From Rubrivivax sp. (GTDB lineage Bacteria; Pseudomonadota; Gammaproteobacteria; Burkholderiales; Burkholderiaceae_C), in contig JAHCKS010000024.1 in the NCBI GenBank assembly GCA_026125665.1, positions 1 through 59,816 on the forward strand: 59,816 nucleotides of DNA. Reading direction: 5' to 3'. Shown here piece after piece: positions 32,303 to 57,990 of the stretch. A model generated the notes under the pieces. It was given only the letters and a program-made list of their open reading frames with translations. It ran no database searches and had not been told where the DNA came from. Within the stretch, counting starts at the first letter, position 1, and each line of letters begins with the position of its first letter. The position numbers and the translations under genes are program-made.

Positions 32303-32370
32303 GCATCGTCCCCCCGCGGCCCCCTTCCCGTCCTTGAGCGCCCTGAGCGCGGCTTGAAGCGTTCTGAATT
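32303..32370 (-). promoter_or_regulatory. Operator/promoter site B (TTCAG-type repeats)
   Basis: On the minus strand TTCAGAACGC, TTCAAGCCGC, CTCAGGGCGC and CTCAAGGACG follow each other at 10-12 bp (plus-strand 32331-32370), then GGACGATGC (32303-32311), 60 nt before the start of peptide B. The first unit is identical to those of sites C and F. Confidence 0.7.
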
Positions 32371-32531
32371 GCCCGCGCCGGCCGGGGTGGCGATACTCGC
32401 CGCCTGGCCGGATGGGGCCTGCGTGCGGAGGACACCGAGTGAATCGTCCCGCCCTCCTGTTCAGTGGCGTGCCGGCGGACGGGAGGAACTTTCCCGTCTC
32501 GTCGTGAAAGGTCGTCCGGCAGGCTGAACCC

Positions 32532-32969
32532 ATGAAGCACCTCGTCTTGAACCTTCGAGACGGCACGGCGGAACAGGCCGCCGCTTTCCTGCGAGCGCAG
32601 GTGTGGGCGCTCGATCGCGACGAGCGCCACGGCGAGGCGCTTGCCCCCGGCGATCTCGCCCTGATCCATGTCGGCAGACCCCGGTGCGTGTTCATCGGCC
32701 GCGCCAGGCTTGCGACGGCTTTCGACCGCTGGACGGCCTTGCGGTCCGAGGTGGGCCACGACATGCGTTGCGACGGCGTGCTGTTGGACGATGTCGAGCA
32801 GTGGCCTCGGGCGCTGCCGCTGGATGCCGTCGTGCATCGCATCGATCCGGCAGCGTCCAACCCCTACGTCCAGGCGAACGCAGCGGGCTTTCGATCGGGC
32901 ATCGTTCTCATCACTGCCGCGGAGTACGCCATCACGGTGGCTCTCGGTCGCGAAGCTCGGCCGTCCTGA
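32532..32969 (+). CDS. EVE/PUA-like domain protein, tentative
   Basis: This encodes 145 residues. The segment LAPGDLALIHVGRPRCVFIG, then RARLATAFDRWT, resembles the strand order of EVE and ASCH (PUA-fold) domains, which bind modified bases or RNA; HVGRPRCVFIGRA matches the usual pattern of a small-molecule-exposed strand. The rest (DMRCDGVLLDDVEQWPRALP, HRIDPAASNPYVQANAAGF) fits a single-domain protein. I cannot identify the binding pocket with certainty. It is divergent from peptide B, about 290 bp apart, so site B could in principle affect both. Confidence 0.45.
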   Translation: MKHLVLNLRDGTAEQAAAFLRAQVWALDRDERHGEALAPGDLALIHVGRPRCVFIGRARLATAFDRWTALRSEVGHDMRCDGVLLDDVEQWPRALPLDAVVHRIDPAASNPYVQANAAGFRSGIVLITAAEYAITVALGREARPS

Positions 32970-33064
32970 GCCCGGTTCGGCCGCGTGGGCAGCACCGGGC
33001 GCGGCAGTTCCGCGCCAGCGCGCCTCGCTGGGTTCGTGCCGGTCCGGGTCGCGCGGCCCTGCGA

Positions 33065-33145
33065 GGCTGCCTGTGTCCAAGGCGCCTGCCGTCGAAACAC
33101 CCGTTGCGCCGTCCGAAGGAGTGCGGCTAGGCTGGCGTGACGATG
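33065..33145 (+). repeat. Copy of the regulator R4 promoter region
   Basis: This 81-bp stretch matches 41609-41689 without gaps (74 of 81 identical by direct reading), including the -35 TTGCGC (33104-33109), an 18-bp spacer, the -10 (TAGGCT here, TACGCT at R4) and the GTGACGATG at the start codon. The regulator coding sequence is absent: the ATG at 33143 opens only a 40-codon frame ending at 33265. The relic now lies 143 bp upstream of the Skp-like gene and may drive it. Confidence 0.8.
33104..33133 (+). promoter_or_regulatory. Sigma-70-like promoter upstream of the Skp-like gene
   Basis: TTGCGC (33104-33109), an 18-bp gap and TAGGCT (33128-33133). The same arrangement occurs before R4 (TTGCGC, 18, TACGCT) and R5 (TTGTGC, 18, TACGCT), which supports its being a real promoter. 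Confidence 0.5.
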
Positions 33146-33275
33146 AAAGCAGCCTTCCAACCTGAGTGGCCGCCGCAGTCGCCACGCGCGTCACTCACAG
33201 TGCCTGCGTGGCTGGCAGTCGTGACCTCACCTGCCCCTGCCGGGCGCGCGCGAGCACGCCGGTGATCGGTGGCGC

Positions 33276-33818
33276 ATGACTTCATACCTTCTTGCCGCCG
33301 TGACGCTTGCGTTCGCCTTCGTCGCGCAGGCGCAGGAGGTCGTGCCGGTTCGGATGGGCGTCGTCGACCTGCGGCAGGCCTTCCAGCGCTCGCCGCTGGC
33401 GATGACGCTCACGGTGGGTATCGGGGCCGAGTTCGAAGGTCGGCGGCGCGAGCTCCGGCGGCGCCTCATCGAACTGGGAAAGTTGCGCGATCGCGCCCAG
33501 CGCGCCGAGGGCCAGGAGCGCACCGAGCTCGAGGAGCGGATCTGGCAGGAGTCACGGTCGGCGGCCGAGGCCCAGAGCGCCTACCGCCGAGACCTCGAAG
33601 CGGCTCAGAAGCGCCTGGGGGATGAACTGCTCGCCCACGTGAGCGAGGTGGCGGCAGAGGTGGCGCGCGAAAGGGGGCTCACGCTGCTCGTGAAGACGGA
33701 GGGTGTCCTTTGGACGAGGTCGCCGGCCGTGGTGCCGATCGACATCACCGAGGACGTCGCCCGCGCCCTGCTTCAGCGGGCCGAGCGGCCCGCCGCCGCG
33801 CCGGCCACGCGCCAGTGA
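33276..33818 (+). CDS. OmpH/Skp-family periplasmic chaperone-like protein
   Basis: This encodes 180 residues. A signal peptide (SYLLAAVTLAFAFVAQAQE) leads to the Skp opening VRMGVVDLRQAFQRSPL. A long coiled coil follows (GRRRELRRRLIELGKLRDR and onward through about residue 125), then the closing domain LTLLVKTEGVLWTRSPAVVP with the terminal helix. Skp proteins form trimers that hold unfolded outer-membrane proteins in the periplasm. The true skp usually sits next to bamA and lpxD; this isolated copy is probably a paralogue with a special client. A duplicated regulator promoter lies upstream. Confidence 0.8.
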   Translation: MTSYLLAAVTLAFAFVAQAQEVVPVRMGVVDLRQAFQRSPLAMTLTVGIGAEFEGRRRELRRRLIELGKLRDRAQRAEGQERTELEERIWQESRSAAEAQSAYRRDLEAAQKRLGDELLAHVSEVAAEVARERGLTLLVKTEGVLWTRSPAVVPIDITEDVARALLQRAERPAAAPATRQ

Positions 33819-33860
33819 CGGGCGGCCCCCGGCTCGTCCAGCGCAACGCCTGACGGTGCT

Positions 33861-38345: not shown

Positions 38346-38546
38346 GCGCCTCGGCGAGGAGGGGCGGCGTGAGTGGCAACCATTCCATCGCTGCACCGCA
38401 CCCTCGACCGGCCTCAGGGCTCGTATGCTCGCTTCGCTCGGCAGCTCGTTTGCACCGGGCGGCCGTGCATCCGCGTGCCGCGCCTCGAGGGCACCCATAG
38501 GGGAAAAGGGGGCGAGCTGCTGCAACGAGGAGCGTCGGGCGTGACG

Positions 38547-41201
38547 ATGGGAGAAGCGTTCCGCTTCGGCCCCGGCGGCCGTTTCGAGCTGCAGCCGCTC
38601 GAACGCCGGTTGCGGGTCGACGGCCAGCCGGCCGCGCTTGGTGCGCGTGCCTTCGACCTGCTGGTGGCGCTGGCCGCACGGCCGGGCGAACTGCTGACCA
38701 AGCAGGTGCTGATCGAGGCGGTGTGGCCCGATGTGGTGGTCGAGGAAGGCAACCTCGCCACGCAGATCAGCGCGCTGCGCAAGGTGCTGGGCGGCGAGGT
38801 GATCGCGACGATCCCCGGGCGCGGCTACCGGTTCACCGCACGGGCGGCGGCGGTCGAGTCTGCTGCGTCGCCCGCACCCGCTGCAGGGGCGGCGGCGTCG
38901 TCGCCGGTCCGCTTGCCGCCCGAGGCGGACACACCCGCCGATGTGGCCGCGCCGGCGCTGCACACGCACTTGCCCGCCGAGCTGCCGCCGCTGATCGGCC
39001 GCGCCGATGACCTCGCCGCCCTCGGCGAGCTGGCGGCCCGCCACCGCCTCATCAGCATCGTCGGCGCCGGCGGCATGGGCAAGACGCGCCTGGCGCAGGC
39101 CTTCCTGCACGGCCGCCAGCACGCCTTCCCGCACGGCGTGTGCTGGGTGGACCTGTCCAACGTCACCGACGCCGCGGCGGTCCCTTCGGCCATCGGCGCG
39201 GCGCTGGGCGTGCGCGTAGGCTCCGGCAAGGCGCTGCAGGGCCTTTGCAGCGCCGTCGCGCCGCTGGACATGCTGGTGGCACTGGACAACGCCGAACACC
39301 TGCTGGACGGCACGGCCGAGGCCGCGCAGGCGCTGCTGGACGCGGCGCCGGCGCTGCGGCTCGTCGTTACCAGCCAAGCGCCGCTGAAGCTGCCGCTGGA
39401 GTGGGTGTACCGGCTCGAGGCCCTGGCCGTGCCGCCGGGCCCGCTGCCGCTGGCCGAGGTGCTCGGCTTCGGCGCGGTGGCGCTGTTCGTCGAGCGCGCG
39501 CGCGCGGCCGACCACCGCTTCGGGCTGACCGAGGCCACCGGGCCGGCGGCCATCGAGCTGTGCCGGCGCCTGGACGGCCTGCCGCTGGCCCTCGAGCTGG
39601 CCGCCGCGCGCGCGCCGATGTTCGGCGTGGCACAGCTGGCGGCTTCGATGGACGAGCGGCTCAGGCTGCTCGGCGGCGGCCGCCACCGCCGCGGCCCGGC
39701 GCGCCACCAGACGCTGCGCGCCACGCTCGAGTGGAGCCACGGCTTTCTCGACGAGGCCGAGCGCACGGTGTTCCGCCGCCTGGCCGTCTTCGCCGGCAGC
39801 GGCTCGCTGGCGATGGTGCGGCGCGTGCTGGCCGACGATGCGCTCGACGAGTGGACGGTGCTGGACGCGCTGGCGCTGCTGGTGGAGCGCTCGCTGGTGG
39901 TGGCTCTGACGCCTCTGACGACGCCCGAGCCGCAGGCCCCCGAAGCCGGCACCGAGCCGCGCTACCGCCTGCTGGACACGACGCGGTTGTACGCCCTGGA
40001 ACGCCTGCGCGAGGCCGGCGAGGAGGCCGAAGTGCGCCGCCGCCATGCGCGGGCGGTGGCCGCGCGCTTCGACGCCGCGCTGCACGAGCGCTACGACGGC
40101 AGCATCGGCGTCGAAGAATGGATGACGCGGCTGTCCGCCGACCTGGACAACGGACGTCAGGCCCTTGCCTGGGCGCTCGCCGAGGGCGATGCCACGGCGG
40201 CGCTGACGATCGCCGCCACCCTGTTTCGCGCGTTGCCCCTGGCGCTGCACGACGAGCGCGGCCGCATCTGCGATCGGTGCGAGCCGTTGTTGGCAGGCGT
40301 GGCGCGCGTCGACTTGCGCGTGCGAATGGGCGTGCTCGTCTCGACCCACTTCCACAGCTCGAACGCCGCACGCGCTATGCGGGCCGCCCGACGAGCCGTC
40401 GAGGACACACGCGCACTGGCCGACGATGCCGATGCGCGCTGGTTGCGCTACGAAGCCCTGAGCAACCTGGCCTTGAACGCCGCCCGCACGTCGGATCTGG
40501 ACACGGCCGGTGCGGCGCTCATGCAGGCCCGCAAGCTCGAAGACGCTGCCTGGCCGCCGCTGCGGCGCTTGCGGCTCTCGGAGGCAGAGTACGCGTTCGC
40601 CGCGGCGTCGGACGATCCGGCAGCCGCCCTTCGACTCGGGCGCGCGGACCTGGCGATCCGTCGCTCGGCCGGCGATCCGAGCTTCATGACGCAGGCGAAC
40701 CTCGTCGACCTGGAACTCGCCGCCGGCAACGCCGCCGCGGCCGCGCGCGATGGCGCGGCGCTGGTCGAGGCGCTCGAGGGCGGCCGCGACCCGAGGAGCC
40801 TGACGTGGGCCCGGCTCAACCTCGGCGCGGCGTGGCTGGCCCTCGACGACACGGCGCGCGCCCGCGCCGCGCTGCAGGCCGGCTGGGGCCGCGCGGCGAC
40901 GTTCTTTGCACAGATGGCCTACGCGGACTACCTGGCGCTGCTGGCTGCGCTCGAGCACCGCTGCCGCGCCGCGGCGCGCCTGGCCGGCTACGCCGACGCG
41001 CGCAATGCGGCCGCGAGCCCGCGCCAGCCGAACGAGGCGGCTGCCATCGCGCGCGCCGCAGGCTTGGCCCGCGCGGCGCTGGGCGACGCGTTGTTCGAGC
41101 GGCTGCATGCCGAGGGCGCAAGGCTGCCCGACGAAGACGTTGCGGGCCTCGCGTTCGCGGAGGTGGATGCCGGCGCGGACCGGGATACCGCAGTCGGCTG
41201 A
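38547..41201 (+). CDS. Winged-helix / STAND-ATPase / TPR regulator R3
   Basis: This encodes 884 residues. The winged helix (1-100) has VVEEGNLATQISALRKVLG and GRGYRF. The P-loop IVGAGGMGKTRL lies near 171, Walker B VALDNAEHLLDG and LDGLPLALELAAAR follow, then HQTLRATLEWSHGFL, typical of the COG3903 ATPase group. The C-terminal 400 residues are helical TPR-like repeats ending LPDEDVAGLAFAEVDAG. ATG 38547 sits in GTGACGATGG, the same context as R4. It is more diverged from R4 and R5 than they are from each other. It is co-directional with SBP3 and with the small peptide C gene 148 bp downstream. Confidence 0.87.
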   Translation: MGEAFRFGPGGRFELQPLERRLRVDGQPAALGARAFDLLVALAARPGELLTKQVLIEAVWPDVVVEEGNLATQISALRKVLGGEVIATIPGRGYRFTARAAAVESAASPAPAAGAAASSPVRLPPEADTPADVAAPALHTHLPAELPPLIGRADDLAALGELAARHRLISIVGAGGMGKTRLAQAFLHGRQHAFPHGVCWVDLSNVTDAAAVPSAIGAALGVRVGSGKALQGLCSAVAPLDMLVALDNAEHLLDGTAEAAQALLDAAPALRLVVTSQAPLKLPLEWVYRLEALAVPPGPLPLAEVLGFGAVALFVERARAADHRFGLTEATGPAAIELCRRLDGLPLALELAAARAPMFGVAQLAASMDERLRLLGGGRHRRGPARHQTLRATLEWSHGFLDEAERTVFRRLAVFAGSGSLAMVRRVLADDALDEWTVLDALALLVERSLVVALTPLTTPEPQAPEAGTEPRYRLLDTTRLYALERLREAGEEAEVRRRHARAVAARFDAALHERYDGSIGVEEWMTRLSADLDNGRQALAWALAEGDATAALTIAATLFRALPLALHDERGRICDRCEPLLAGVARVDLRVRMGVLVSTHFHSSNAARAMRAARRAVEDTRALADDADARWLRYEALSNLALNAARTSDLDTAGAALMQARKLEDAAWPPLRRLRLSEAEYAFAAASDDPAAALRLGRADLAIRRSAGDPSFMTQANLVDLELAAGNAAAAARDGAALVEALEGGRDPRSLTWARLNLGAAWLALDDTARARAALQAGWGRAATFFAQMAYADYLALLAALEHRCRAAARLAGYADARNAAASPRQPNEAAAIARAAGLARAALGDALFERLHAEGARLPDEDVAGLAFAEVDAGADRDTAVG

Positions 41202-41248
41202 CGCCCGTCGCGCCGCGTGACACACCCCGCTACCGCCCGGCCCTCCGC

Positions 41249-41312
41249 TTCAGAACGCTCCAGAACGCTGGATGCGGCCTGAAGGACCCTTCAGGGGCTG
41301 CGGGTGGACAGT
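41249..41312 (+). promoter_or_regulatory. Operator/promoter site C (TTCAG-type repeats)
   Basis: TTCAGAACGC (41249-41258) and TCCAGAACGC (41259-41268) are adjacent 10-bp repeats, followed by CCTGAAGG-AC-CCTTCAGG and GGACAGT (41306-41312). The GGACAGT lies 38 nt before ATG 41350. The arrangement matches sites D to F. Confidence 0.75.
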
Positions 41313-41349
41313 GACGCCCACCGCAGCAGCCACCCCAAGGGAGCTCATC

Positions 41350-41535
41350 ATGCAAGTCACCCGCAACGCCTGCCGGCCCGGGCGCCTGTCCAGCCTGTCG
41401 CGCCTGGCCGCCACGATCGCGAGCCTCGTGGTCTCGACCACGATCCTCGGCGCCGTGCTCGCCGCGTTCGACTCGCTGGCCGACGCGGCCGTCGTGAGCG
41501 CCATGGCCCCCGGCTCGGCGAGCCGGCAGGCCTGA
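41350..41535 (+). CDS. Small single-span membrane peptide C
   Basis: This encodes 61 residues: basic N-terminus (QVTRNACRPGRLSSLSR), hydrophobic helix (LAATIASLVVSTTILGAVLA) and a C-terminal tail (FDSLADAAVVSAMAPGSASR). ATG 41350 has AAGGGAG seven bases upstream. It is the only gene between site C and regulator R4, whose own promoter lies at 41648. The hydrophobic part could be an anchor or a signal peptide that releases a short tail; the two cannot be told apart by eye. It is a member of the peptide set seen five times in the window. Confidence 0.68.
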   Translation: MQVTRNACRPGRLSSLSRLAATIASLVVSTTILGAVLAAFDSLADAAVVSAMAPGSASRQA

Positions 41536-41677: not shown

Positions 41678-41686
41678 GGCGTGACG

Positions 41687-44104
41687 ATGGAAGAAGCCCT
41701 CCGCTTCGGAGCAGTCGAGGTCCGCGCGGCGCAGCGCCAGGTGCTCGTCGACGGCCGCCCGGCGCCGCTCGGCTCGCGCGCGCTGGACGTGCTGCTCATG
41801 CTGCTGGAGCACCGCGACCGCGTGGTCGGGAAGGACGAGCTGATCGGCAAGGTCTGGGCGGGCCTCGTCGTCGAGGAGAACAACCTGCAAGTGCAGGTCA
41901 GCGCGCTGCGCAAGCTGCTGGGCGTCGGCGCGATCGCGACGATCCCGGCGCGCGGCTACCGCTTCGTCGCCCAGTCGGACCCGAGCCCCATCGGCCAGGC
42001 CGTGCAGGCGGCCGACGCCGCCGGTGGGGCCGACGCGGCCGAGCGTGGACCGGCCATCTCGCTGCCGAGGCACCGCTCGCCCTTCTTCGGGCGCGAGCGC
42101 GAGAGGCGCCAGGCGCTGGCGCACCTGCACGAGCACGCGCTGCTCACCTTGATCGGCATCGGCGGCAGCGGCAAGACGCGGCTGGCGCTGGAGATCGCCC
42201 GCGACGTGCAGCCGCAGCTCCCCGATGGCGTCGCCTTCGTCGACCTGGCCGCCGTCGGCGACCCGCAGGATGTCGAGGCCATCGTCGCCAGCGGCCTGGG
42301 CGTCCTGCCGGTGCCGGGCACACCGCTCCTGCAGCTGCTGCAGGAGCGGCTGCGCCGCTCGCGGCAGCTGCTCGTGCTCGACAACTGCGAGCACCTGCTG
42401 GAGCCAGTGGCGAAGCTCGTCGATGCGCTGCTGGGCCAGTGCGACGGCTTGCGCGTGCTCGTCACCAGCCGCGAGGCGCTGGGCCTGGAGGGCGAGCGCC
42501 TGCTGCCGGTGGGGGCGCTGGCGCTGGCCGCCGCCGAGGACGTGACGGCGCTGCAAGAGTGCGATGCGGTGAGGCTCTTCGCCGACCGGGCGCTCCTCGT
42601 GAACCCGGAGTTCGCCGTCGACGAACGCAACGCCGCGGCGGTGCACGAGGTCTGTCGGCGCCTGGACGGCATTCCGCTGGCCCTCGAGCTGGCCGCGGCG
42701 CGCCTGAGCGTGTTGTCCGTGGAACAACTGCGGGACCGGCTCGACGACCGCTTCCGCCTGCTGACTGGCGGGCGCCGCGCCCTGCCGCGCCAGCAGACGC
42801 TCGATGCGGTGGTGCGCTGGAGCTACGAGCACCTGAGCGCCGACGAGCAGCGGCTGCTGCAAAGGCTCGCGGTGTTCAGCGGCGGCTCGACGGTCGAGGC
42901 GGCGGTGTTCGTCTCGGCAGGTGACGCGTCGGAGCCTCAGGTCATCGAACAGCTCTCGGACCTGGCCGCGAAGTCGCTGATCGCCTTGAGCTCCGACGGG
43001 CCGCAGCCGCGCCACCGGATGCTGGAGACGGTGCGCCTGTTTGCACTCGAGCGCCTGGACGAGAGCGGACTGGCCGGTGAGGCGCGCGACCGGCACCTGG
43101 CGTTCTTCGAGAAGCGGGCCGGCGACCTGGGCCATCACGCCGACCCTGTGGTCCGTGCCAGCGCGTCGGCGCTGCTCGATGCCGACCGCGACAACGTGAT
43201 CGCGGCCCTTCGTCATGGTGCCGGCGGGGGCGATGCGCAGGCGGCCTGGCGCCTGGCGAGTTCGCTGGGGCGGTACTGGGAGAAGCGCGGGATGGCCGAG
43301 CTCGGATACTCCCTCCTTGAAGCGATGCTCTCGTCGACGCAGCCTGCGATTCAGGGCGCAGCCCGGTTGGCAGCGCTTCGAGCCGTGCGAACCGTCGCCA
43401 ACACGACCGGCCGCTTTCGACGCGGCAGGGAGCTGACGGAAGAACAGTTGCAGCTCTCGCGGGCCCTCGGCGATCGAGAGGCCGAGATCAACGCGCAGAT
43501 CGGCATGGTGGTCGCGGCGCTGGCGCTGGACGATGCACCGCAAGCCTGGTCGCACGTCGAGTCGATGGAGGCGTTGGCCGCCCGCCGGCCGCAGAGCGCG
43601 GGCGACGTACGGCATTACAAGGCAGAGACGTTGCGTGCCCTGGGTCGCCTCGACGAGGCCGAGCCCCTGTACCGGCAGAACCTGGACGAAGGCGCCGCCA
43701 TGGACACCATCGTCGCCGCCATCAACCTGGCGCTGCTCGAGCTCGCGCGCCCGGATCTCGACGCCGCCCGGGCATGGATCGAGCGCCTCGTCGAAGTTCG
43801 CAGGCAAGGAGACCACGGCGCCCACGGCGTGCTGCACCTCCTGCTCGTGGCCGCGGCCCTGCATGCCGCGGCCAACGAGGGGGTGATGGCAGCGCGCCTG
43901 CACGGCGCGGCAGAGGCGCTGCAGCAGCTCACTGGCCAGAGGCTCGAGCCGATCGACCTGGCACCGCTGGCGCCGTACCTCGCGCAGGCGCGCGCGGCCA
44001 TCCCCGCCGAGGACTATGCGAAGGCTTTCGAGGAAGGCCGCGCCCTCGATCAGGCGGCGGTGATGCAGCTGGCCGCCGACTGCTTGCCGCGCCCGGCGCG
44101 TTGA
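41687..44104 (+). CDS. Winged-helix / STAND-ATPase / TPR regulator R4
   Basis: This encodes 805 residues. The winged helix (1-100) has VVEENNLQVQVSALRKLLG and ARGYRF. The P-loop LIGIGGSGKTRL is near 155, Walker B LLVLDNCEHLL and VTSREALGLEGERLLPVGAL follow, then LDGIPLALELAAARL and QQTLDAVVRWSYEHLS. TPR-like helices fill about 470-805. R4 and R5 are near-identical in the DNA-binding and ATPase parts but differ strongly in the TPR region. R4 is convergent with SBP1 (gap about 54 bp) and downstream of peptide C. It is expected to be a cytosolic activator gated by a ligand bound by the TPR part. Confidence 0.9.
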   Translation: MEEALRFGAVEVRAAQRQVLVDGRPAPLGSRALDVLLMLLEHRDRVVGKDELIGKVWAGLVVEENNLQVQVSALRKLLGVGAIATIPARGYRFVAQSDPSPIGQAVQAADAAGGADAAERGPAISLPRHRSPFFGRERERRQALAHLHEHALLTLIGIGGSGKTRLALEIARDVQPQLPDGVAFVDLAAVGDPQDVEAIVASGLGVLPVPGTPLLQLLQERLRRSRQLLVLDNCEHLLEPVAKLVDALLGQCDGLRVLVTSREALGLEGERLLPVGALALAAAEDVTALQECDAVRLFADRALLVNPEFAVDERNAAAVHEVCRRLDGIPLALELAAARLSVLSVEQLRDRLDDRFRLLTGGRRALPRQQTLDAVVRWSYEHLSADEQRLLQRLAVFSGGSTVEAAVFVSAGDASEPQVIEQLSDLAAKSLIALSSDGPQPRHRMLETVRLFALERLDESGLAGEARDRHLAFFEKRAGDLGHHADPVVRASASALLDADRDNVIAALRHGAGGGDAQAAWRLASSLGRYWEKRGMAELGYSLLEAMLSSTQPAIQGAARLAALRAVRTVANTTGRFRRGRELTEEQLQLSRALGDREAEINAQIGMVVAALALDDAPQAWSHVESMEALAARRPQSAGDVRHYKAETLRALGRLDEAEPLYRQNLDEGAAMDTIVAAINLALLELARPDLDAARAWIERLVEVRRQGDHGAHGVLHLLLVAAALHAAANEGVMAARLHGAAEALQQLTGQRLEPIDLAPLAPYLAQARAAIPAEDYAKAFEEGRALDQAAVMQLAADCLPRPAR

Positions 44105-44158
44105 GTCGCCAAGCGCCGGCGAGGGCGCAGGCCTGCAAGTGGCCTCTGAAGGAGTCGC

Positions 44159-46211: not shown

Positions 46212-46652
46212 TCAACGGCGTGCCAACAGCGCCGGCTCGACGGCCACGATGCGCTCGCGCTGCGCCGAGGCCTCGCGGTCAAGGAAGACCACCTGCATGC
46301 GAACCGACTGGCGGCCCTGGCCGCCGCTGTGGCAGTCCAGGCGATGCACGGCACCGGCCGTGGCGCGGCGGTACGCGAGGGGGCCGCCGCTCACCTGCAC
46401 CGCCTCGACCCGATCGTCGGCGATGGTGAACGAGACATCGAGCGTGCCGCCTTCCGCTTCGCGCCAGGCGACGTGGCCCAGCATGTCCTGCAGCTGCTCG
46501 TCGACGCTGCGGCAGGCCACACGCACGCTGGCGCGCGGCGCGGTCACCTCGATGCTCTGCGTGGCGGCGACCTCCTGCTGTGCGAAGGCTGCGCCGGCGA
46601 AGGTCGTGAGCAGGATCGTGGAGGCGATGGAGGACATCGTCGTGCGCTTCAT
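46212..46652 (-). CDS. Exported protein, possible TonB-C-like fold
   Basis: This encodes 146 residues. The signal is MSSIASTILLTTFAGAAFAQ. The mature region RVACRSVDEQLQDMLGHVAW, then GTLDVSFTIADDRVEAVQVS, then the closing helix ATAGAVHRLDCHS and strand SVRMQVVFLD have the beta-alpha-beta pattern of TonB C-terminal-like domains; that is a guess from shape. Two cysteines could form a disulfide. ATG 46652 has AAGGAG upstream. It lies between peptide D and SBP1; the duplicate cluster with SBP2 lacks it, so it was gained or lost after duplication. Confidence 0.6.
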   Translation of the reverse strand: MKRTTMSSIASTILLTTFAGAAFAQQEVAATQSIEVTAPRASVRVACRSVDEQLQDMLGHVAWREAEGGTLDVSFTIADDRVEAVQVSGGPLAYRRATAGAVHRLDCHSGGQGRQSVRMQVVFLDREASAQRERIVAVEPALLARR

Positions 46653-46868: not shown

Positions 46869-46913
46869 GGCTTCTCTCCGGGTGGTGCACCGAGGTGCGT
46901 TGCGATGGGATGG

Positions 46914-46979
46914 ACTGTCCGCCCGAGGGGCCCTTCAGGTCTTTAAGCCGGCTGAAGTTGCTGCTGAAACGTCCTGAGG
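46914..46979 (-). promoter_or_regulatory. Operator/promoter site D (TTCAG-type repeats)
   Basis: On the minus strand CCTCAGGACG, TTTCAGCAGC, CTTCAGCCGG and CTTAAAGACC-TGAAGG are spaced about 10-12 bp apart, followed by GGACAGT (plus-strand 46914-46920) 46 nt before peptide D. The plus strand of the same segment lies upstream of R5, so one region could serve both divergent genes. Confidence 0.75.
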
Positions 46980-47021
46980 CCGCTGGCGCGACCGCGCGCT
47001 CGCCGGACGCCTCGATATCCG

Positions 47022-49568: not shown

Positions 49569-49622
49569 GCCGCCGGGCGCCGGCGAGAGCGCAGACCTGG
49601 AAGTGGCCTCTGAAGGAGTCGC

Positions 49623-51482
49623 CTAGAAGGGGGCACCGCCGCCACGCCGCCGCTGTTCGGCGAGGTCGATATCGACGTACTTCCAGAACGGCCCGTTGAA
49701 CGTGTGCCGGTGGTAGCCCACCACCCAGGGGTGCGCGAGGTCGGTCGCGATGCGGTGCGTCTGGACCTTGAGCGGCATGTGCGCCACCAGCAGCCGGGTG
49801 GCGTCCTGCATCACGGCCAGCCGCTCGGGCCCGTCTGGCAGGCGGCGCTGTCGCTCGTACAGCGCGTTGTAGGCGGGCAGGTCGAAGCGGCTGTGGTTGG
49901 CGCCGCCCTTGTTAGGCCCGTAGGCCAGCGAGAGGAACACGTCGCCGTCGGGCACGCCGCTGACCCAGCCGAAGCCGAACATCATCAGCTTGCCGGCGCG
50001 GCTGGCCTTCCACTGCTCCGGCCACTGCGCGAAGTCGAACGCGATCCGGATGCCGATCGCGGTCATGTTCTTCTGCCACAGCTCGTTGTGCTGGCGGCTC
50101 ACGCCGTCGGGGGTAGTGGCATAGCGCAGCACCAGCGGCGAGCCGTCGGGCTGCTCGCGCCAACCGTCGCCGTTGCGGTCGACGTAACCGTAGAGGTCGA
50201 GCAGGGCCTTGGCGCGCGCGGGGCTGAAATCGCTCAGCTCGGTCTTGAGCTTCGGATCGTGGCCGTAGGTGCCCGGCGGAATTGGCCCCTGCGCCGGCAC
50301 GGCCTGGCCGCGCCGGGCCTGGCGGATCTCGCGTTCCACGTCCACCGCCAGCGAGATGGCGCGGCGCAGCGCCACCTTGTGCGGCTCGTGGCCGCCGACG
50401 AGCGGGTCGTCCATCTGGAAGTAGGTGATCGTGGCGTCGGGCCGCGGGTAGCGGACCATCGAGACACCGCGCCGGGCCAGGTGGGGCGCGATGCGGTTGT
50501 TCGGGAAGGCCACGGTGGCGAAGTCCGCCGGCACCGCCTCGATCAGGTCCTGCTCCTCGTTGAGGAACGAGAGCCAGCGTGGCTGCGACTCCTGGATGAT
50601 GGAGATGCGCACCTCGTCGACCATCGGCAGCCGGCGGCCCTTCAGCTGGCCGGCGACGCGCGCCAGGCGCTCGTGGCCGGCCGGCGCGCTCTCGTCGTAG
50701 CGCACGTCGCGGTAGTGCGGGTTGCGCTCGAGCACGATGAGCGAGCTGCGCTTCCACTGCTTGAGCATGAAGGGGCCGGTCCCTACCGGATGCTCGCCGA
50801 TGCGGTCGCCGTAAGCCTCCACCACTTCGCGTGCGAGCGCACCGACGAAGGCACCGAAGACGTAGTTCTGCAGGAAGCGCGGCGACGGTTCGGCGAGCTT
50901 GACCTGGAACGTGTAGCGGTCGAGCGCCCGCAGGCCCTCGGCCGGCGTGTCGTAGTCGAACGCCGTCTTGCCGTCGAGCGCCTTCCTGCGCAGCTCCGAG
51001 AGGCCGAGGATCTTCTCGTTCTCGAAGACGTAGAGCCCGCCGCTCTTCCAGCGCGGGTCGTAGAAGCGCTTGATCGAGTAGACATAGTCCTCGGCGACGA
51101 GCTCGCGCTTCCTTCCCTTGAACGCCGGGTCGTCGGCGAAGTAGATGCCCGGCCGGATGCGGAACGTGAAGGTCCTGAAGTCAGCGCTGACCTCGGGCAT
51201 CGCGGCCGCGGTGTTGGGTCGCATGCCCACCGGCGCGGCGAGGAAGGTGTACTCGAGCGGCGCCTCGAAGAGGTTCGCGAGCACGTTGCGGGAGTAGACA
51301 TCCGTCACCTGGACGGGGTCGAACGTTGTCTCGGCGGCCGGGAAGGCGTAGCGCAGGACCTTGCGGCCTTGCATGTCGCCGTCGCCGCTGCCGCCCGCGG
51401 GCGCCGCGGCGGCGACGCCTCCCCCCAGGGCCGCTGCCACGGCCGCGATCCACGGGATCAAGCTTCGCCAGATGCGGGCCAT
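49623..51482 (-). CDS. ABC-type family-5 (oligopeptide) solute-binding protein SBP2
   Basis: This encodes 619 residues. The signal MARIWRSLIPWIAAVAAALG leads to VLRYAFPAAETTFDPVQVTD. Family-5 marks include IGEHPVGTGPFMLKQWKRSS and LLDLYGYVDRNGDGWREQPD. Almost the whole chain can be aligned by eye with SBP1. ATG 51482 has GGGAGG seven bases upstream. It lies 66 bp after the small peptide E gene on the same strand and probably shares its transcript from site E. No ABC permease genes are present nearby. Confidence 0.9.
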   Translation of the reverse strand: MARIWRSLIPWIAAVAAALGGGVAAAAPAGGSGDGDMQGRKVLRYAFPAAETTFDPVQVTDVYSRNVLANLFEAPLEYTFLAAPVGMRPNTAAAMPEVSADFRTFTFRIRPGIYFADDPAFKGRKRELVAEDYVYSIKRFYDPRWKSGGLYVFENEKILGLSELRRKALDGKTAFDYDTPAEGLRALDRYTFQVKLAEPSPRFLQNYVFGAFVGALAREVVEAYGDRIGEHPVGTGPFMLKQWKRSSLIVLERNPHYRDVRYDESAPAGHERLARVAGQLKGRRLPMVDEVRISIIQESQPRWLSFLNEEQDLIEAVPADFATVAFPNNRIAPHLARRGVSMVRYPRPDATITYFQMDDPLVGGHEPHKVALRRAISLAVDVEREIRQARRGQAVPAQGPIPPGTYGHDPKLKTELSDFSPARAKALLDLYGYVDRNGDGWREQPDGSPLVLRYATTPDGVSRQHNELWQKNMTAIGIRIAFDFAQWPEQWKASRAGKLMMFGFGWVSGVPDGDVFLSLAYGPNKGGANHSRFDLPAYNALYERQRRLPDGPERLAVMQDATRLLVAHMPLKVQTHRIATDLAHPWVVGYHRHTFNGPFWKYVDIDLAEQRRRGGGAPF

Positions 51483-51548
51483 GGTGAAACCTCCCGGTGC
51501 GCAGCTTACGGCCTGGCCGCCCCGGCGGCCAATCGTGGGCCGCACGAC

Positions 51549-51689
51549 TCAGCCGCGCACCGTCGTCTCGGCCAGCAGGGGGGCCGGCTCCTCGGGCAGC
51601 GCGTAGCCGGCGATCAGGTGCACCAGCGTGAAGGTCACGAGGAGCGAGGCGACGAGGGCGGCGGCGCGGGTCGTGAGCGAGGTCTTCAT
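51549..51689 (-). CDS. Small single-span membrane peptide E
   Basis: This encodes 46 residues: MKTSLTTRAAALVASLLVTF, then TLVHLIAGYA and the tail LPEEPAPLLAETTVRG. It is the partner of peptide D, with about three quarters of positions identical by eye; differences cluster in the tail (PEEPAPLLAETTV against PEAPAPVLAQATP). ATG 51689 has GGGAGAG a few bases upstream. The charge pattern (positive N-terminus, hydrophobic core, mixed tail) fits a secreted precursor or a bitopic membrane peptide. It leads the SBP2 transcript. Confidence 0.75.
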   Translation of the reverse strand: MKTSLTTRAAALVASLLVTFTLVHLIAGYALPEEPAPLLAETTVRG

Positions 51690-51734
51690 GGCTTCTCTCC
51701 CGGGGGTGCGCCGAGGCGCGTTGCGATGGGAGGC

Positions 51735-51800
51735 ACTGTCCACCCGAGGGGCCCCTTCAGTCTTGAAGCGGCCTGAAACCGGGCCTGAAGCGTTCTGAGG
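51735..51800 (-). promoter_or_regulatory. Operator/promoter site E (TTCAG-type repeats)
   Basis: On the minus strand CTCAGAACGC, TTCAGGCCCG, TTTCAGGCCGC and TTCAAGAC-TGAAGG are spaced 10-12 bp, then GGACAGT (plus-strand 51735-51741) 46 nt before peptide E. The distances match site D closely. Confidence 0.78.
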
Positions 51801-51881
51801 CAGCCGAGCGCGGCCGCCGGCGCAGCCGCGAGCCCACCGTGTCGAAGGGATCAGGCGAGGTCCGCGGCGGGCAGCAGCGAC

Positions 51882-53782: not shown

Positions 53783-53788
53783 CGAACG

Positions 53789-54841
53789 TCAGCCGCGCTT
53801 CTCGCAAGCCTTGCGGCCTGCTTCCATCTGCTCGAAGAACTTCGGCCCGCCGGGGCCGGCTTCCTGCACCATCTTCGGCCACAGCGGCGCGACGGCCTTG
53901 CGCCACTCTTCGCGCTGCTCGGGCGTGAGTTGCACGACCTGCCCGCCGGCCTTCTCGTGCATGCCGCGGATGCGTCCCTCGAAGTCGCGGATCTCCTGGC
54001 GGTTCTGAGCCACGGGCACGCGCGCGCGGGCCCGCGTCATCGCCTGTTGCTGCTCGGGGGCCAGCTTGTCCCAGGCGGCCTTGTTCATCAGGGTCACCGT
54101 GGGCAGGGGCGCCAGGTCGAGCCGCGTCAGCACCGGCGCCACCTTGCCGATGCCGGCCGGCACGTACAAGGTGGCCACGGTGGCGGCAACGTCGATGAGC
54201 CCGGTCTGGAAGTGCGAAGCGACCTCGGTGCTGTTCATCGCCGTCGGATTGGCGCCGAGGCCGGACCAGAAGTGGGCGTACATCCTCGTTCCCTGGGTCC
54301 CGGCCTTGAGGCCCTTGAGGTCGCCTGGCGCGACGAAAGGCCGCTTGCCTGCGAGGTCCAGCACACCCGCCTCGCCCCAGCCGATGAACTGCACGCCCTT
54401 GGCGGCGAACAGCTCGCTCACCGCGGGCGTGATGGCCGTATCGAGCACGCAGTCCACTTCGGACGGCGTCTTGAAGTACAGCGGCATCAGCAGCAGCGAG
54501 ACCTCAGGCACGAGCAGCGCTGCATTGCCTAGGGCGAAGCCGCCGAGGTCGATGCGTCCGCGCGCCACCTGCTGCACGGTGTCCTGCTCGCTGCCGAGCT
54601 GCGACGAATGGAACACCGCGATCCTGACCGCACCCCGGCTTTCCTCGTCGATCGCGTTGGCCCAGCGTTCGATCTGCATGATCCAAGGCGTCTTCAACGG
54701 CGCCGACGCGGTGTAGCGAAGCTCGACGGTTGGTCTTGCCTGACCCAGGGCCGGGCTGGCAACGAGCGCAGCGAGCGTGAGGACGGCTGCGGCAGCGGCC
54801 GCCTTGGCCACGGGGGCGAACGGGTTCGATGCGGCCTTCAT
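53789..54841 (-). CDS. dctP: TRAP transporter periplasmic receptor (DctP family)
   Basis: This encodes 350 residues. The signal peptide APVAKAAAAAAVLTLAALVA, ending PALGQA, is followed by VELRYTASAPLKTPWIMQIE and later SQLGSEQDTVQQVARGRIDL, typical of DctP receptors. The central motif ALLVPEVSLLLMPLYFKTPS and the region GEAGVLDLAGKRPFVAPGDL agree. It binds an organic acid ligand in the periplasm and hands it to DctQM. The exact ligand cannot be inferred. ATG 54841 has GAGGAGATTCCG upstream. The operon starts downstream of site G, a TTCAG-type operator shared with the small peptide genes. Confidence 0.92.
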   Translation of the reverse strand: MKAASNPFAPVAKAAAAAAVLTLAALVASPALGQARPTVELRYTASAPLKTPWIMQIERWANAIDEESRGAVRIAVFHSSQLGSEQDTVQQVARGRIDLGGFALGNAALLVPEVSLLLMPLYFKTPSEVDCVLDTAITPAVSELFAAKGVQFIGWGEAGVLDLAGKRPFVAPGDLKGLKAGTQGTRMYAHFWSGLGANPTAMNSTEVASHFQTGLIDVAATVATLYVPAGIGKVAPVLTRLDLAPLPTVTLMNKAAWDKLAPEQQQAMTRARARVPVAQNRQEIRDFEGRIRGMHEKAGGQVVQLTPEQREEWRKAVAPLWPKMVQEAGPGGPKFFEQMEAGRKACEKRG

Positions 54842-54876
54842 CGGAATCTCCTCGGGTGGGCTGAACGGGTGCAGCC

Positions 54877-54930
54877 AGTGTCCGTGTCGCCCCCTCGCCG
54901 GTCCTGAAGCGCGCCTCAAGCGCGTCTGAA
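54877..54930 (-). promoter_or_regulatory. Operator/promoter site G (TTCAG-type repeats) of the TRAP operon
   Basis: On the minus strand TTCAGACGCGC, TTGAGGCGCGC and TTCAGGACC repeat at exactly 11 bp (plus-strand 54901-54930), followed by GGACACT (plus-strand 54877-54883) 36 nt before ATG 54841. The 11-bp spacing is that of tandem OmpR/PhoB-type binding. Confidence 0.72.
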
Positions 54931-54949
54931 TCAGTCGATCCCTGACCCT

Positions 54950-56593
54950 TCAGGGCTTGCCGCAGCGCCGCTGGAACGCCGCGAACGCTTCGAATCGCTC
55001 CAGCGCATCCGGCAGGCCGGCCTTCAGCAGGCCCATCACCCAGTGCTGGCGATGTCGACTCAGGAATTCCTCGTTCTGGCTGTGCCTGAAGCGAAGCGCG
55101 TACTCGCGACCCTGCGGCACCTCTTCCGCCCGAGCCAGTGCGGCACGCGCTTCGTCCGGCCGATCCAAATGGGCCGACGCCGCCGCATGCAGGTGCAGCA
55201 GCGGCCACCAACGCGGCATCAAGGCTTGGGCCTTCTCGCACCACGGCAGCGCCTGCTCGTACTCGCCCGACAGCAGGTGCGCCCATGCGAGATACAGGAA
55301 CCACACCCAGCGCACGGGGTCGCGCGGCGAGAGGGTCAGCGCGCGGTGCAACAACGCTGGCGCCGCGTCGGGCTGGCCGCTCAGGATCAGGAAATGGCCG
55401 CACCAGCCCAGGGCCATGGGGTCACAAGGGTTCAGCGCCAATGCCTGATCGAGCGCCGCCTTGGCGGCGTCGAGGCGGAACTGGAGCTGGCGCACGCGCG
55501 CCAGCGTGGCGTGGCTGCGGGCATCCAGCGAGTCCTGGGCGAGCGCGCGGGTGATGTCGCTGTCGACTTGCGCGATGCGGGCCTCGTCGTCAGGCCCGGG
55601 CCAGACCGCCGTGACGGCGACCCGGAAGCGGGCTCGCACGGCCAGCGCCGGACCAAAGTCGGGTTGCAGTCGCAACGCGTGATCGCACAGGCGGATCGCG
55701 GCTTCGTATCGTTCCCGCGACGCACCCTCCCGGCTGGCGGCGAGCGCCTGCATCACCAGGTCCTGGGCTTCGAGGTTGTCGGCGCCCCCCACGAGCGAGC
55801 GTCCGGCCTCGGCGGCAATCAGCTCCAGGCCCAGCGCCGCGGCCAGCCGCGCCACCAGCTCGTGCCGGATGTGGCCGACGCCGACGCGGGGCACCTCGAT
55901 CACGTCGGACCACACCACGGCGCCCGTGGCCGCATCGGAAAGCCGCACGTTGGCTTCCACGCTCGCCTCCGTGCGCTCCACTCGGCCCTGCAGCACGTAG
56001 CGCACGCCGAGATCGCGAGCCACGGTCGCGATGTCGAGCTTCTCGCCCTTATGCGCCAACGCCGTGGAGCTGCCGATGACGTAGCTGCCGTGGATCTTGG
56101 AGAGCTGCGTCGTCACGTCGTCGGTGATCGCGTCGGCGAAATACGCCTCCTCGGGCGGCGCATGCGATTCGACGAAGGGCAGCACGATCACCGACAGGCG
56201 GCGCAGCGGCGGCCGGCTCGTCGAGGTTGGCTCGGCGGCACGCCCGCTCGCGCCGGCTTCGGGCGGTTCACGCTCAGGCTCTGGTTCGGCGGCCTCCCGC
56301 ACATCCAGCACGAAGCGGTAGCCGGCACCGGGCACGTTGAGCACCGCGTCGGCGCCGATGGCCTTGCGCAGCAGCGACACCTGCACGTGCAGGTTGCTCT
56401 CCTCGACCACGAGCCCGCGCCAGACGGTCTGGAAGAACTCGTCCTTGGTGACGAGCTGCCCAGGACGCCGCGCCAGCTGGCACAACATCGCGAAGGCGCG
56501 CGGTCCAAGCGGCACTTCGGCACCCTCGCGCAGCAGCCGCTGCTCGCCGGGCAGCAGCGTGAAGTGGCCAAAGCGCAGGGCAGAAGCGGGCAT
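54950..56593 (-). CDS. Winged-helix / TolB-like / TPR regulator R6
   Basis: This encodes 547 residues. The winged helix (1-100) contains VVEESNLHVQVSLLRKAIG and GAGYRF. About 135-260 matches the TolB-like N-terminal region found in CadC-type regulators (SVIVLPFVES, YFADAITDDVTTQLSKIHGS, LGVRYVLQGRVERTEASVEA). TPR repeats fill 290-500 (LDQALALNPCDPMALGWCGH, LLHRALTLSPRDPVRWVWFL). No transmembrane helix is seen. It sits next to the TRAP operon (108 bp upstream of dctP, same strand) and is divergent from the SDR gene. It is a good candidate to control both. Confidence 0.88.
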   Translation of the reverse strand: MPASALRFGHFTLLPGEQRLLREGAEVPLGPRAFAMLCQLARRPGQLVTKDEFFQTVWRGLVVEESNLHVQVSLLRKAIGADAVLNVPGAGYRFVLDVREAAEPEPEREPPEAGASGRAAEPTSTSRPPLRRLSVIVLPFVESHAPPEEAYFADAITDDVTTQLSKIHGSYVIGSSTALAHKGEKLDIATVARDLGVRYVLQGRVERTEASVEANVRLSDAATGAVVWSDVIEVPRVGVGHIRHELVARLAAALGLELIAAEAGRSLVGGADNLEAQDLVMQALAASREGASRERYEAAIRLCDHALRLQPDFGPALAVRARFRVAVTAVWPGPDDEARIAQVDSDITRALAQDSLDARSHATLARVRQLQFRLDAAKAALDQALALNPCDPMALGWCGHFLILSGQPDAAPALLHRALTLSPRDPVRWVWFLYLAWAHLLSGEYEQALPWCEKAQALMPRWWPLLHLHAAASAHLDRPDEARAALARAEEVPQGREYALRFRHSQNEEFLSRHRQHWVMGLLKAGLPDALERFEAFAAFQRRCGKP

Positions 56594-56650
56594 GCCGAAG
56601 GCCTTTGGACGCTGGTGCGCCGGGGGCAGCGACGAGGCCGGAGCATCGTC

Positions 56651-56684
56651 TTAAGGTCGATTGAGGTCAACCTTCAGAACGCCG
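56651..56684. promoter_or_regulatory. TTAAGG/TTGAGG/TTCAGA tandem repeats, site H
   Basis: TTAAGGTCGA (56651-56660), TTGAGGTCAACC (56661-56672) and TTCAGAACGCC (56673-56683) follow one another at 10-12 bp between divergent R6 and the SDR gene. Both strands match the regulon motif weakly; no GGACAGT element follows. Confidence 0.5.
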
Positions 56685-56799
56685 GAGCGTGAGCTGAGGC
56701 AGAGTCAGCTCCGCGAAGGGCACGGCGGCATCGCGGGGCGGCGGGGGAAGACCCGATCCCGCCTTCTGGTCAAGACCCTGAGCTCGCAAGGAGCGGCCC

Positions 56800-57636
56800 A
56801 TGAAACGCCTGCAGGACAAGGTCGCCATCGTCACCGGCGGCGCCAGCGGCATCGGCGAGGCCACGGCGCGGCTGTTCGCGGCCGAGGGCGCCGCGGTCGT
56901 CATCGCTGACGTGCAGGACGATCGCGGCCGCCGCCTCGCACACGCGCTGGGCGAGCCGGCCGTCTATCGCCACGCCGACGTGAGCCGCGAGAGCGACGTG
57001 ATGGCCTTCGTCGAGCTGGCGCTCGAGCGCTTCGGCCGCCTGGACGTGCTCTTCAACAACGCGGGTTTCGGCGGGCCGGGCGGCGGCATCGAAGAGCTCG
57101 AGGCGGACGGCTGGGACGCGACGATGGCCGTGCTGCTGCGCGGCGTGTTCCTCGGCATGAAACACGCCGCGCCGGTGATGAAGCGCCAGGGCAGCGGCAG
57201 CATCCTCAGCACCGCGAGCGTGGCCGGCCTGCGAGCGGGCCACGGCCCGCACATCTACAGCGCCGCAAAGGCGGCGGTGATCCACCTCACGCGCACGGTA
57301 GCGATGGAGCTGGGCGAATGTGGCGTGCGCGTCAACTGCCTCTGCCCGGGGGGCATCGCGACGCCGATCTTTGGCAAGGGGTTCGGGCTGGCGCCCGAGG
57401 AGGCCGACGCGACGGTGCAGACGATGCGCGGCATGCTCGCGCACATGCAGCCGATCCAACGCGCCGGTGAGCCCGAAGACGTTGCCGCTGCGGCGCTGTG
57501 GCTGGCGAGCGACGAAGCGGCCTTCGTCAACGGCCACGCGCTGGTGGTCGACGGCGGGCTGACCGGTGGGCGCCTGTGGAGCGACTCGCAGCAGCGGCGA
57601 GCGGTGATGCGTTCGGCCCTGGGGACCGACGGTTGA
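56800..57636 (+). CDS. Short-chain dehydrogenase/reductase
   Basis: This encodes 278 residues and is a classical SDR: cofactor loop TGGASGIGEATARLF, NNAGFGGPGGG, active-site Ser in SILSTASVAGL and Tyr-Lys in HIYSAAKAAVIHL (the YSAAK core), and PG in NCLCPGGIATPIFGKGFG. It uses NAD(P)H to oxidise or reduce a hydroxyl group; the substrate is unknown. The start is ATG 56800 with AAGGAG upstream. It is divergent from R6, with site H in the 206-bp gap, and convergent with the peptide F gene, so R6 control is plausible. Confidence 0.93.
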   Translation: MKRLQDKVAIVTGGASGIGEATARLFAAEGAAVVIADVQDDRGRRLAHALGEPAVYRHADVSRESDVMAFVELALERFGRLDVLFNNAGFGGPGGGIEELEADGWDATMAVLLRGVFLGMKHAAPVMKRQGSGSILSTASVAGLRAGHGPHIYSAAKAAVIHLTRTVAMELGECGVRVNCLCPGGIATPIFGKGFGLAPEEADATVQTMRGMLAHMQPIQRAGEPEDVAAAALWLASDEAAFVNGHALVVDGGLTGGRLWSDSQQRRAVMRSALGTDG

Positions 57637-57679
57637 GCTCGCCCGGCCAGTGCAGCGGCACCGGTGCACGAAGGGCAGT

Positions 57680-57877
57680 TCAGCGCACGACGCGGTTGGC
57701 AGCGGCCGAAGCCGCCGCCAGCTGCTGCGTCGGGACCGCGGGCTGGCGCCCCGGGCTCCTGGCCATCAGCTCGCTGCGCTGCGGCTCGCTGATCGAGACG
57801 ACCGCCGAGAAGAGCACGAGCGTCGTGCAGCCGGCCAGGGCGGCGGAGACCAGGCGGCGGAGGCGGTTGGCGTTCAT
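57680..57877 (-). CDS. Small single-span membrane peptide F
   Basis: This encodes 65 residues: NANRLRRLVSAALAGCTTLV, then LFSAVVSI and a hydrophilic tail of about 35 residues (SEPQRSELMARSPGRQPAVP, then TQQLAAASAAANRVVR). ATG 57877 has AGGAGCCCGCC upstream, the identical context to peptide B at 32243, and the leader also resembles that of B (GTGTCGATG, CACTGTCC). It is convergent with the SDR gene and has no neighbour in its own direction for 170 bp, so it is a single-gene unit under site F. Confidence 0.7.
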   Translation of the reverse strand: MNANRLRRLVSAALAGCTTLVLFSAVVSISEPQRSELMARSPGRQPAVPTQQLAAASAAANRVVR

Positions 57878-57924
57878 GGCGGGCTCCTGTCGTGGACGGT
57901 GGTGGTGCGGTGTCGATGAACCGC

Positions 57925-57990
57925 ACTGTCCGCCGGAAGCCTGCGTTCAGTCCTTTGGCCGCCTGAAACGGGCCTGAAGCGTTCTGAAGG
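57925..57990 (-). promoter_or_regulatory. Operator/promoter site F (TTCAG-type repeats)
   Basis: On the minus strand CTTCAGAACGC, TTCAGGCCCG, TTTCAGGCGGC and AAAGGAC-TGAA follow at 10-12 bp, then GGACAGT (plus-strand 57925-57931) 48 nt before peptide F. Its first three repeat units are almost identical to those of site E. Confidence 0.78.

Follow-up and report, generated by a model that had tools for sequence, protein, structure and literature searches.

Repeat Arrays and Their Shared Promoter Core

The stretch analysed here (hereafter, the window) comprises 59,816 nucleotides of Rubrivivax sp. DNA with a GC content of 72% and represents one contig (JAHCKS010000024.1, labelled G000:C146) of a 6.28-Mb genome (268 contigs, 88.6% complete). 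It encodes six proteins with a winged helix (R1 to R6), and tandem arrays of TTCAG-type units lie beside regulator genes and before genes for small peptides with one transmembrane (TM) segment (Table 1). These arrays are considered here as putative operators of the neighbouring regulators.

The search for chains of at least three loose half-sites, 10–12 bp apart, revealed six loci in the window, at about 32.35, 46.95, 51.78, 54.92, 56.66 and 57.98 kb; 100 dinucleotide shuffles of the window gave a mean of 0.04 chains and a maximum of 2. The arrays of TTCAG-type units at 10–12 bp reported in the initial annotation, whose site letters were assigned to coordinates by inference, are thus borne out. 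Its statement that the sites carry three or four units does not hold for site C (41249), where two clean units only (TTCAG and TCCAG) are followed by a degenerate third and then by CTGAAGGAC, so that no three-unit chain is formed. Five of the six chain loci are intergenic by the gene calls, and the sixth, at 54.92 kb, overlaps the start of a mechanically called DctP frame (54919), the likely DctP ATG being at 54841. Exact copies of TTCAGAACGC are found at 32359-32368 (-), 41249-41258 (+), 56673-56682 (+) and 57979-57988 (-); copies differing by a single base are at 51790 (CTCAGAACGC), 41259 and 8798. These seven matches compare with 2.4 expected, and the count was reached in 2 of 100 shuffles. 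Simple two-unit patterns scarcely exceed chance, as their observed counts were reached in 19 and 2 of 100 shuffles; they were dropped in favour of the profile and chain tests, and it is therefore the longer arrays that carry the evidence.

Sites B, C, D, E and G also share a longer motif of about 90 bp, which is absent from the initial annotation. In their alignment (A1), 31 of 93 columns are invariant, and the motif extends through GGAC..T to CA.CG; the final unit of site G is CAAAGGAC. Ten sites of the genome, including the TRAP site and those on contigs C24, C221 and C239, fit a core consisting of GAC, 18 or 19 bp, and a GACAGT-like hexamer (gaps of 17–20 bp allowed), and at six window sites the ATG of the first gene lies 35–61 nt past the hexamer. 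The sites had been said to precede five peptide genes and the TRAP operon, which is correct for B, C, D, E, G and the weaker TRAP site, but the three-unit array at 56.65 kb adjoins a dehydrogenase gene and is devoid of the core promoter. The nnGACn element may be read as a −35 and GACAGT as a −10 of sigma70 type, with a spacer of normal length (17–18 bp) and a predicted start near CATCG. Because of this reading, the array would be a class II-like activator site.

Table 1. Positions of the repeat arrays, regulators and neighbouring genes of the window, followed by candidate small RNA (sRNA) loci of Aquabacterium type (aa, amino acids)
Feature	Positions	Strand	Remarks
Site B	32283..32372	-	Units TTCAG/TTCAA/CTCAG/TCAAGGAC, 19 bp, GACGAT; putative promoter of peptide B; profile R1 E 5e-21, but a training site
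Site C	41246..41334	+	Two clean units, degenerate third, CTGAAGGAC, 19 bp, GACAGT; putative promoter of peptide C, R4 next on same strand
Site D	46891..46980	-	Four units, GAC, 19 bp, GACAGT; divergent from R5
Site E	51711..51802	-	Four units, GAC, 19 bp, GACAGT
TRAP site	54871..54932	-	TTCAG/TTGAG/TTCAG, GAC, 18 bp, GACACT; profile R2 E 0.0055, not a training site
Weaker array	56651..56682	+	TTAAG/TTGAG/TTCAG; between R6 and dehydrogenase gene; no GAC-19-GACAGT core seen
Site G	57901..57990	-	Three clean units and CAAAGGAC, 19 bp, GACAGT
R1, winged helix-STAND-TPR regulator	3919..6411	-	Pfam; only loose TTTAAG-like units upstream
R2, winged helix, receiver, borderline guanylate-cyclase match	18819..20504	-	Pfam; recognition helix VEENNLQVQVSALRR
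R3, winged helix and ATPase (ATPase below cut-off)	38373..41201	+	Pfam; different recognition helix VEEGNLATQISALRK
R4, winged helix-STAND ATPase-TPR regulator	41687..44104 (open frame from 41648)	+	Pfam; 77% identical to R5
R5, winged helix-STAND-TPR regulator, 807 aa	47145..49568 (open frame from 47022)	+	Pfam; AlphaFold predicted local distance difference test (pLDDT) 86.3
R6, winged helix-TPR regulator	54950..56593	-	Pfam; just upstream of TRAP site
Peptide B, 57 aa, one TM	32070..32243	-	Heads same-strand run: two GAF hybrid kinases, then R2
Giant GAF/hybrid histidine kinase, 2626 aa	24044..31924	-	Pfam; nine GAF stretches; downstream of peptide B
Second GAF hybrid histidine kinase	20727..24047	-	Pfam
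Peptide C, 61 aa, one TM	41350..41535	+
Peptide D, 46 aa	46728..46868	-	TM, then SYA^LPE
146-aa protein	46212..46652	-	Homologue in G008 (L077), 48.5% over 103 aa, directly behind a site
SBP_bac_5 (dipeptide/oligopeptide-binding type)	44159..46006	-	Pfam; NCBIfam best DppA, below cut-off; third gene after site D
Peptide E, 46 aa	51549..51689	-
SBP_bac_5 after peptide E	49623..51545	-	83% identical to the D copy
DctP, first TRAP operon gene	53789..54841	-	Pfam; start by eye; DctQ frame 53174-53782, DctM in frame 51882-53906
Peptide G, 65 aa	57680..57877	-	SIS^EPQRSELMAR; paralogue at G000:C112
Candidate sRNA loci L119, L120, L122, L124, L141, L130, L136	about 7590-7990	-
Candidate sRNA loci L132, L145, L147, L150, L154, L156	about 7660-7990	-

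Distribution of the Motif in the Genome, Genus and Order

Two promoter motif models were used, which should not be confused with the proteins R1 to R6: profile R1, a sequence-only profile built from sites B, C, D, E and G, and the broader profile R2; a set of 21 sequences (A4) served for profile building. In the 6.28-Mb genome, a scan with profile R1 that scored 150 of 3109 first-look candidates gave six strong matches, and the training sites account for five. The sixth (G000:C112:6792-6878, E 3e-14) is situated outside the window; it has a divergent regulator of winged helix-STAND type on one side and, on the other, the gene for a 91-aa relative of peptide G. The next match is the TRAP site (E 0.25 with profile R1 and 0.0055 with profile R2). 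Profile R2 also matches C221:22727 (E 0.0014) and C239:478 (E 0.025), each at most 180 bp from a winged-helix domain on the opposite strand, and five of the eight weak matches ranked 7–14 lie within about 2 kb of a Trans_reg_C place; one weak match, C236, covers the −10 part only. The scan thus does not show the motif strewn at random within genes. As neither profile picked up a further TTCAG array close to the C24 regulator, the number of sites in the genome is a lower bound.

The search of 40 genomes of the genus with profile R2 gave ten matches with E<0.003 outside the own genome. Five of them lie at most 1.2 kb from an R5 homologue among the matches listed. Five of the ten, including three of those near an R5 homologue, belong to the training set of profile R2 and were found first by profile R1, which was not trained on them. 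In 300 genomes of the order, profile R2 gave eight matches with E<=0.001, the own genome included, and three of the seven others (L177, L178 and L179) resemble an array promoter before a small TM gene; the remaining four (L180-L183), as well as the matches L069, L070, L171 and L173, look like coding sequence or chance. The Rfam search had no match in the window or in six Aquabacterium-type loci.

The de novo search for 6-mer arrays in 36 regions found three that beat all 30 of their own shuffles: TTAAGG at L121, TTTCGG at C239 and a GC-rich repeat at R6, the last of which was not counted as a site. The arrays of C221 (TTAG) and C24 (TCAGGA) do not beat their shuffles and rest on the GAC-18/19 core.

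Winged-Helix Regulators and Their Link to the Arrays

All six regulators have a Trans_reg_C match over the Pfam cut-off, and R1, R4 and R5 also have AAA_22 over it; NB-ARC and TPR matches were below the cut-off. The top Foldseek match of R5 is the STAND-TPR protein 6mfv. No array was found upstream of R3, where there is only a weak one-unit match at 36291-36326.

The conservation of the arrays was assessed in the best 78 of 181 relatives from named genomes, which were fetched using the R5 protein alone; the fetch patterns included the recognition-helix string EENNLQVQ, and the set is therefore biased to one DNA specificity. The loci belong mostly to Burkholderiales, along with Pseudomonas gingeri and an Acidobacteria metagenome-assembled genome (MAG), and the nearest homologue of R5 among the named loci is encoded in a Rubrivivax MAG (69%). 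Within 300 bp upstream of the regulator, at least two units are present in 46 and at least three in 34 of 77 loci (one locus was too short). The corresponding counts were 48 and 7 in 7206 random windows of the same loci, and 7 and 0 in 1540 shuffles of the upstream windows. Profile R1 gave 35 matches in these loci (E up to 5), mostly just upstream of the regulator and on the opposite strand. Unit distances on the divergent strand are concentrated at 10 bp (42), 11 bp (39), 21–22 bp (41) and 31–32 bp (11), and among pairs 8–14 bp apart, 81 of 90 are at 10 or 11 bp. Of 21 distinct pairs at distances of up to 57 bp between the GAC of the last unit and GA[CA]A[GA]T, 18 have a distance of 18 or 19 bp; these come from 18 of the 20 loci in which such pairs occur. 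The initial annotation had tied the motif to winged-helix regulators at helical spacing, and both the R5-fetched loci and the genus search do place the arrays beside the same regulator family.

Judging by these sequence comparisons, the arrays are quite likely to be operators of the neighbouring winged helix-STAND-TPR regulators, which would switch on a promoter of sigma70-like type, often that of a small peptide encoded next to them. The array could also be an autorepressor operator at the regulator's own promoter, with the peptide side incidental, as it lies between the regulator and a divergent gene; its strand is divergent from the regulator in 45 of the 46 loci with units. However, the GAC-18/19-GACAGT core is on that divergent strand too, so the array is upstream of the predicted −35 for the peptide; besides, a divergent regulator is lacking at sites E, G and TRAP, and site C is directed towards R4. 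Autorepression is accordingly regarded as rather improbable.

Another conceivable arrangement is that a single, unlinked response regulator of a two-component system (OmpR/PhoB type) controls all these promoters, the STAND regulators being bystanders in the same clusters. Tandem repeats are typical of such response regulators, the genome has 44 Trans_reg_C places, many of them in frames of response-regulator size (230–320 aa), and an unlinked protein would fit sites E and G, which have no adjoining regulator. However, in the R5-fetched loci of Burkholderiales, Pseudomonas gingeri and the Acidobacteria MAG, the array adjoins the R5 homologue and is divergent from it, and two variant half-sites of the own genome adjoin other winged-helix regulators, which makes an unlinked regulator unlikely. 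These variants, in which the core is retained, are TTAG at C221 (recognition helix NNITVQ) and TTCGG at C239 (EDSLVQ). At C239 (G000:C239:478-545, L172), four TTTCGG/CTTCGG units at 10–11 bp with a GAC-19 core stand beside a winged-helix gene and before a 239-aa open reading frame (ORF).

If the arrays are operators of the neighbouring regulators, several OmpR-type winged helices would line up head to tail along a single face of the DNA, each on a unit of 10–11 bp, and cover the DNA from about −70 as far as the −35 region, where the last unit abuts the weak −35 (nnGACn). The bound regulator would recruit sigma70-type RNA polymerase to the weak −10 (GACAGT, 17–18 bp spacer), and transcription would start near the conserved CATCG. 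The product would often be a one-TM peptide of 40–90 aa, probably exported, and, as its gene adjoins the regulator gene, the two may form a local control unit. Paralogous regulators may also share sites.

Genes and Non-Coding Stretches behind the Arrays

Genes for small proteins with one hydrophobic segment follow array sites in five cases in the window and at C112, C221 and C199 elsewhere in the genome. In the R5 loci, a small TM ORF (38–100 aa, starting at most 360 bp from the regulator match) follows the array in 16 of 45 array loci and occurs in 2 of 32 loci lacking a rule-based array; these two exceptions, L111 and L146, do match profile R1. Twenty-one of 30 candidates were aligned, nine less alike ones being left out (L077, L086, L087, L091, L093, L095, L100, L102 and L138), and the tallies consequently lean towards the family. 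The aligned peptides form a loose family (mean column identity 26%) with a basic start, a TM segment, often S-x-small followed by xP, and a basic end. By sequence pattern, a hydrophobic segment is present in 21 of 21, a signal-peptidase-like small-x-small^xP in 13 and R/K/H within the last two positions in 17. None of the ten peptides scanned had a Pfam match, and none of the five scanned against NCBIfam was above the cut-off. A second peptide subfamily (L086, L091 and L095) shows a pattern like LFQ.RG.P...LV.AERAC..Y.YVS....CM..WL.

Several observations weigh against the reading of the arrays as operators of adjacent regulators, often for a peptide. By the simple rule, 31 of the 77 R5 loci have no array; sites E and G have no regulator directly alongside, and R1 and R3 have no good array of their own. 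Among the ten genus matches, three are 4.0–6.2 kb from an R5 homologue (G012, 6.2 kb; G014, 4.2 kb; G028, 4.0 kb) and two, G010 and the strong site of G009 (on a 9.6-kb contig), have no R5 homologue on the contig among the matches listed. The co-variation of recognition helix and half-site comprises two cases, of which C221 does not beat its shuffles, and the R5 locus set, picked partly by EENNLQVQ, cannot test it. As to the products, the rule finds no small TM ORF in 29 of 45 array loci, and the TRAP, C24 and C239 arrays precede genes other than those of small peptides.

Finally, a conserved stretch of about 200–330 nt with no shared ORF seen comes after the array in loci of Aquabacterium type, so the output of an array is not always a peptide. 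The stretch starts with GACAAT-N7-CATTCTAAAGAAA or near it and mostly ends in a GC-rich hairpin with a T run, resembling a terminator; standing in the place of the peptide, it is a candidate sRNA.

Among the other genes of the window, site B heads a same-strand run at 18819-32243, from peptide B through R2. Three solute-binding proteins (SBPs) of peptide-binding type (36522-38345, 44159-46006 and 49623-51545) adjoin R3, R4 and R5, and no ABC permease turned up among the window genes scanned. The SBPs of D, E and R3 gave no match in loci L054-L162 at 1e-8; OppA/SBP was rejected as a part of the system, and the SBPs were treated as window-specific for this reason. In the closest named locus, L085, a zinc dehydrogenase, TRAP DctQ/DctM and an M19 membrane dipeptidase are found near the regulator-peptide pair (3123-6080 and 14385-15506).

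Duplication and Age of the Sites

R4 and R5 are 77% identical, the SBP copies 83%, and the site and leader DNA of D and E 80%; the five other pairs of sites compared are 60–69% alike. By these identities, D and E are clear tandem copies of recent origin, and the rest is older. The array architecture recurs in other genera with regulators 31–42% identical to R5, which, together with the similarity of the other pairs, suggests an old, maintained architecture more than a recent spread. It was proposed earlier that the sites make up one regulon spread by duplication; duplication is seen in the D/E copies but does not account for the other pairs or for the recurrence across genera. Several parallel regulons seem just as likely as one, because different recognition helices have different half-sites (TTAG at C221, TTCGG at C239).

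The tandem duplication of the D and E units could also mean that the sites are inherited, duplicated leader DNA with no binding role. However, units and spacing persist where the regulators are 31–42% identical to R5 and the peptides align poorly (26%), and such passive inheritance is highly improbable.

Possible Peptide Signalling

The pairing of regulator and peptide, the 13 of 21 cleavage-like sites, the 17 of 21 R/K/H ends and the fold neighbours of the TPR part evoke a Gram-negative peptide-signalling loop. An exported peptide, processed to a short form in the periplasm or outside the cell, would return to the cytoplasm, bind the Rap/NprR-like TPR domain of the STAND regulator and drive its own promoter via the TTCAG array, making a STAND-based counterpart of the Firmicutes RRNPP loops; in the window, re-entry would perhaps proceed through the neighbouring oligopeptide-binding proteins. 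The divergences of regulators and peptides are correlated (Mantel r 0.43, 0 of 2000 permutations, n=17, L127 being left out of 18 pairs), a result that shared descent alone could give. Against such a loop, the SBPs were not found in the other fetched loci, R4 and R5 are 77% identical with peptides C and D only 27% identical, the resemblance of the TPR part is of a generic kind, and peptides B and C have no cleavage-like site. It seems doubtful that the peptide is the signal; if it is, an RRNPP-like loop would exist in Gram-negative bacteria.

The operator reading itself offers a readable candidate operator for a STAND regulator family of Burkholderiales and beyond, for which no target reports were found in the open-licence literature, and exposes an unannotated family of small peptides, probably controlled by these regulators. 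Once operator and partner gene are known, finding out what these regulators sense would become straightforward.

Comparison with Known Systems

Winged-helix activators that bind repeats are already known; no description of the present operator, of its link to proteobacterial STAND regulators or of the pairing with peptides was found in the open-licence literature. The large SARPs of Streptomyces, such as AfsR, combine an OmpR-type winged helix with BTA, a NOD (STAND) ATPase and TPR, and bind direct repeats at 11 bp near weak −10 and −35 elements; a distance of 8 bp separates their 3' repeats from the −10, and the centre of the afs box is at −29.5 (PMC10936776). In PimR, a SARP-LAL protein, three heptamers with 4-bp spacers and secondary 10-bp units are described (PMC5930380). 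The system described here is similar in having a winged helix, a STAND ATPase and TPR in R1, R4 and R5, direct repeats at 10–11 bp and predicted weak −10/−35 elements. It differs in the distance of 18–19 bp between the GAC of the last unit and the predicted −10 hexamer, the array lying upstream of and into the −35, in the mostly proteobacterial origin of the regulators and in the target, which is often a small peptide. No BTA domain was detected in Pfam scans of R1–R6 at E<=0.001; in the R5 model, 37 residues, some of them with pLDDT <50, lie between the winged helix and the first helix of the ATPase. R4 did not reach the cut-off of the NCBIfam AfsR equivalog (38.3 vs 1430), and SARP structures were not among the matches listed in the VIA-align search, which excludes nothing.

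HilA/EilA and CadC have the same class of winged helix, R6 likewise combines a winged helix with TPR, and these families are among the better NCBIfam matches, but R5 is far below the curated cut-offs (CadC, 42.7 vs 400; HilA/EilA, 30.7 vs 589). PhoB and OmpR bind repeats that follow one another head to tail at intervals of one helical turn, ahead of a weak promoter, and the winged helices of the present regulators can be aligned to PhoB. The difference is that STAND and/or TPR parts take the place of the receiver domain; Pfam found no receiver in R1 or R3–R6, and that of R2 is C-terminal to the winged helix.

In the RRNPP systems, adjacent genes encode a TPR receptor of 250–500 aa and a peptide of 10–100 aa (PMC10075063). 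The top structural neighbours of the TPR part of R5 are Rap proteins, TPR similarity being generic. A TPR regulator gene likewise adjoins a TM ORF of 38–100 aa in 16 of 45 array loci, but R5 is a STAND receptor of 807 aa and belongs to Pseudomonadota.

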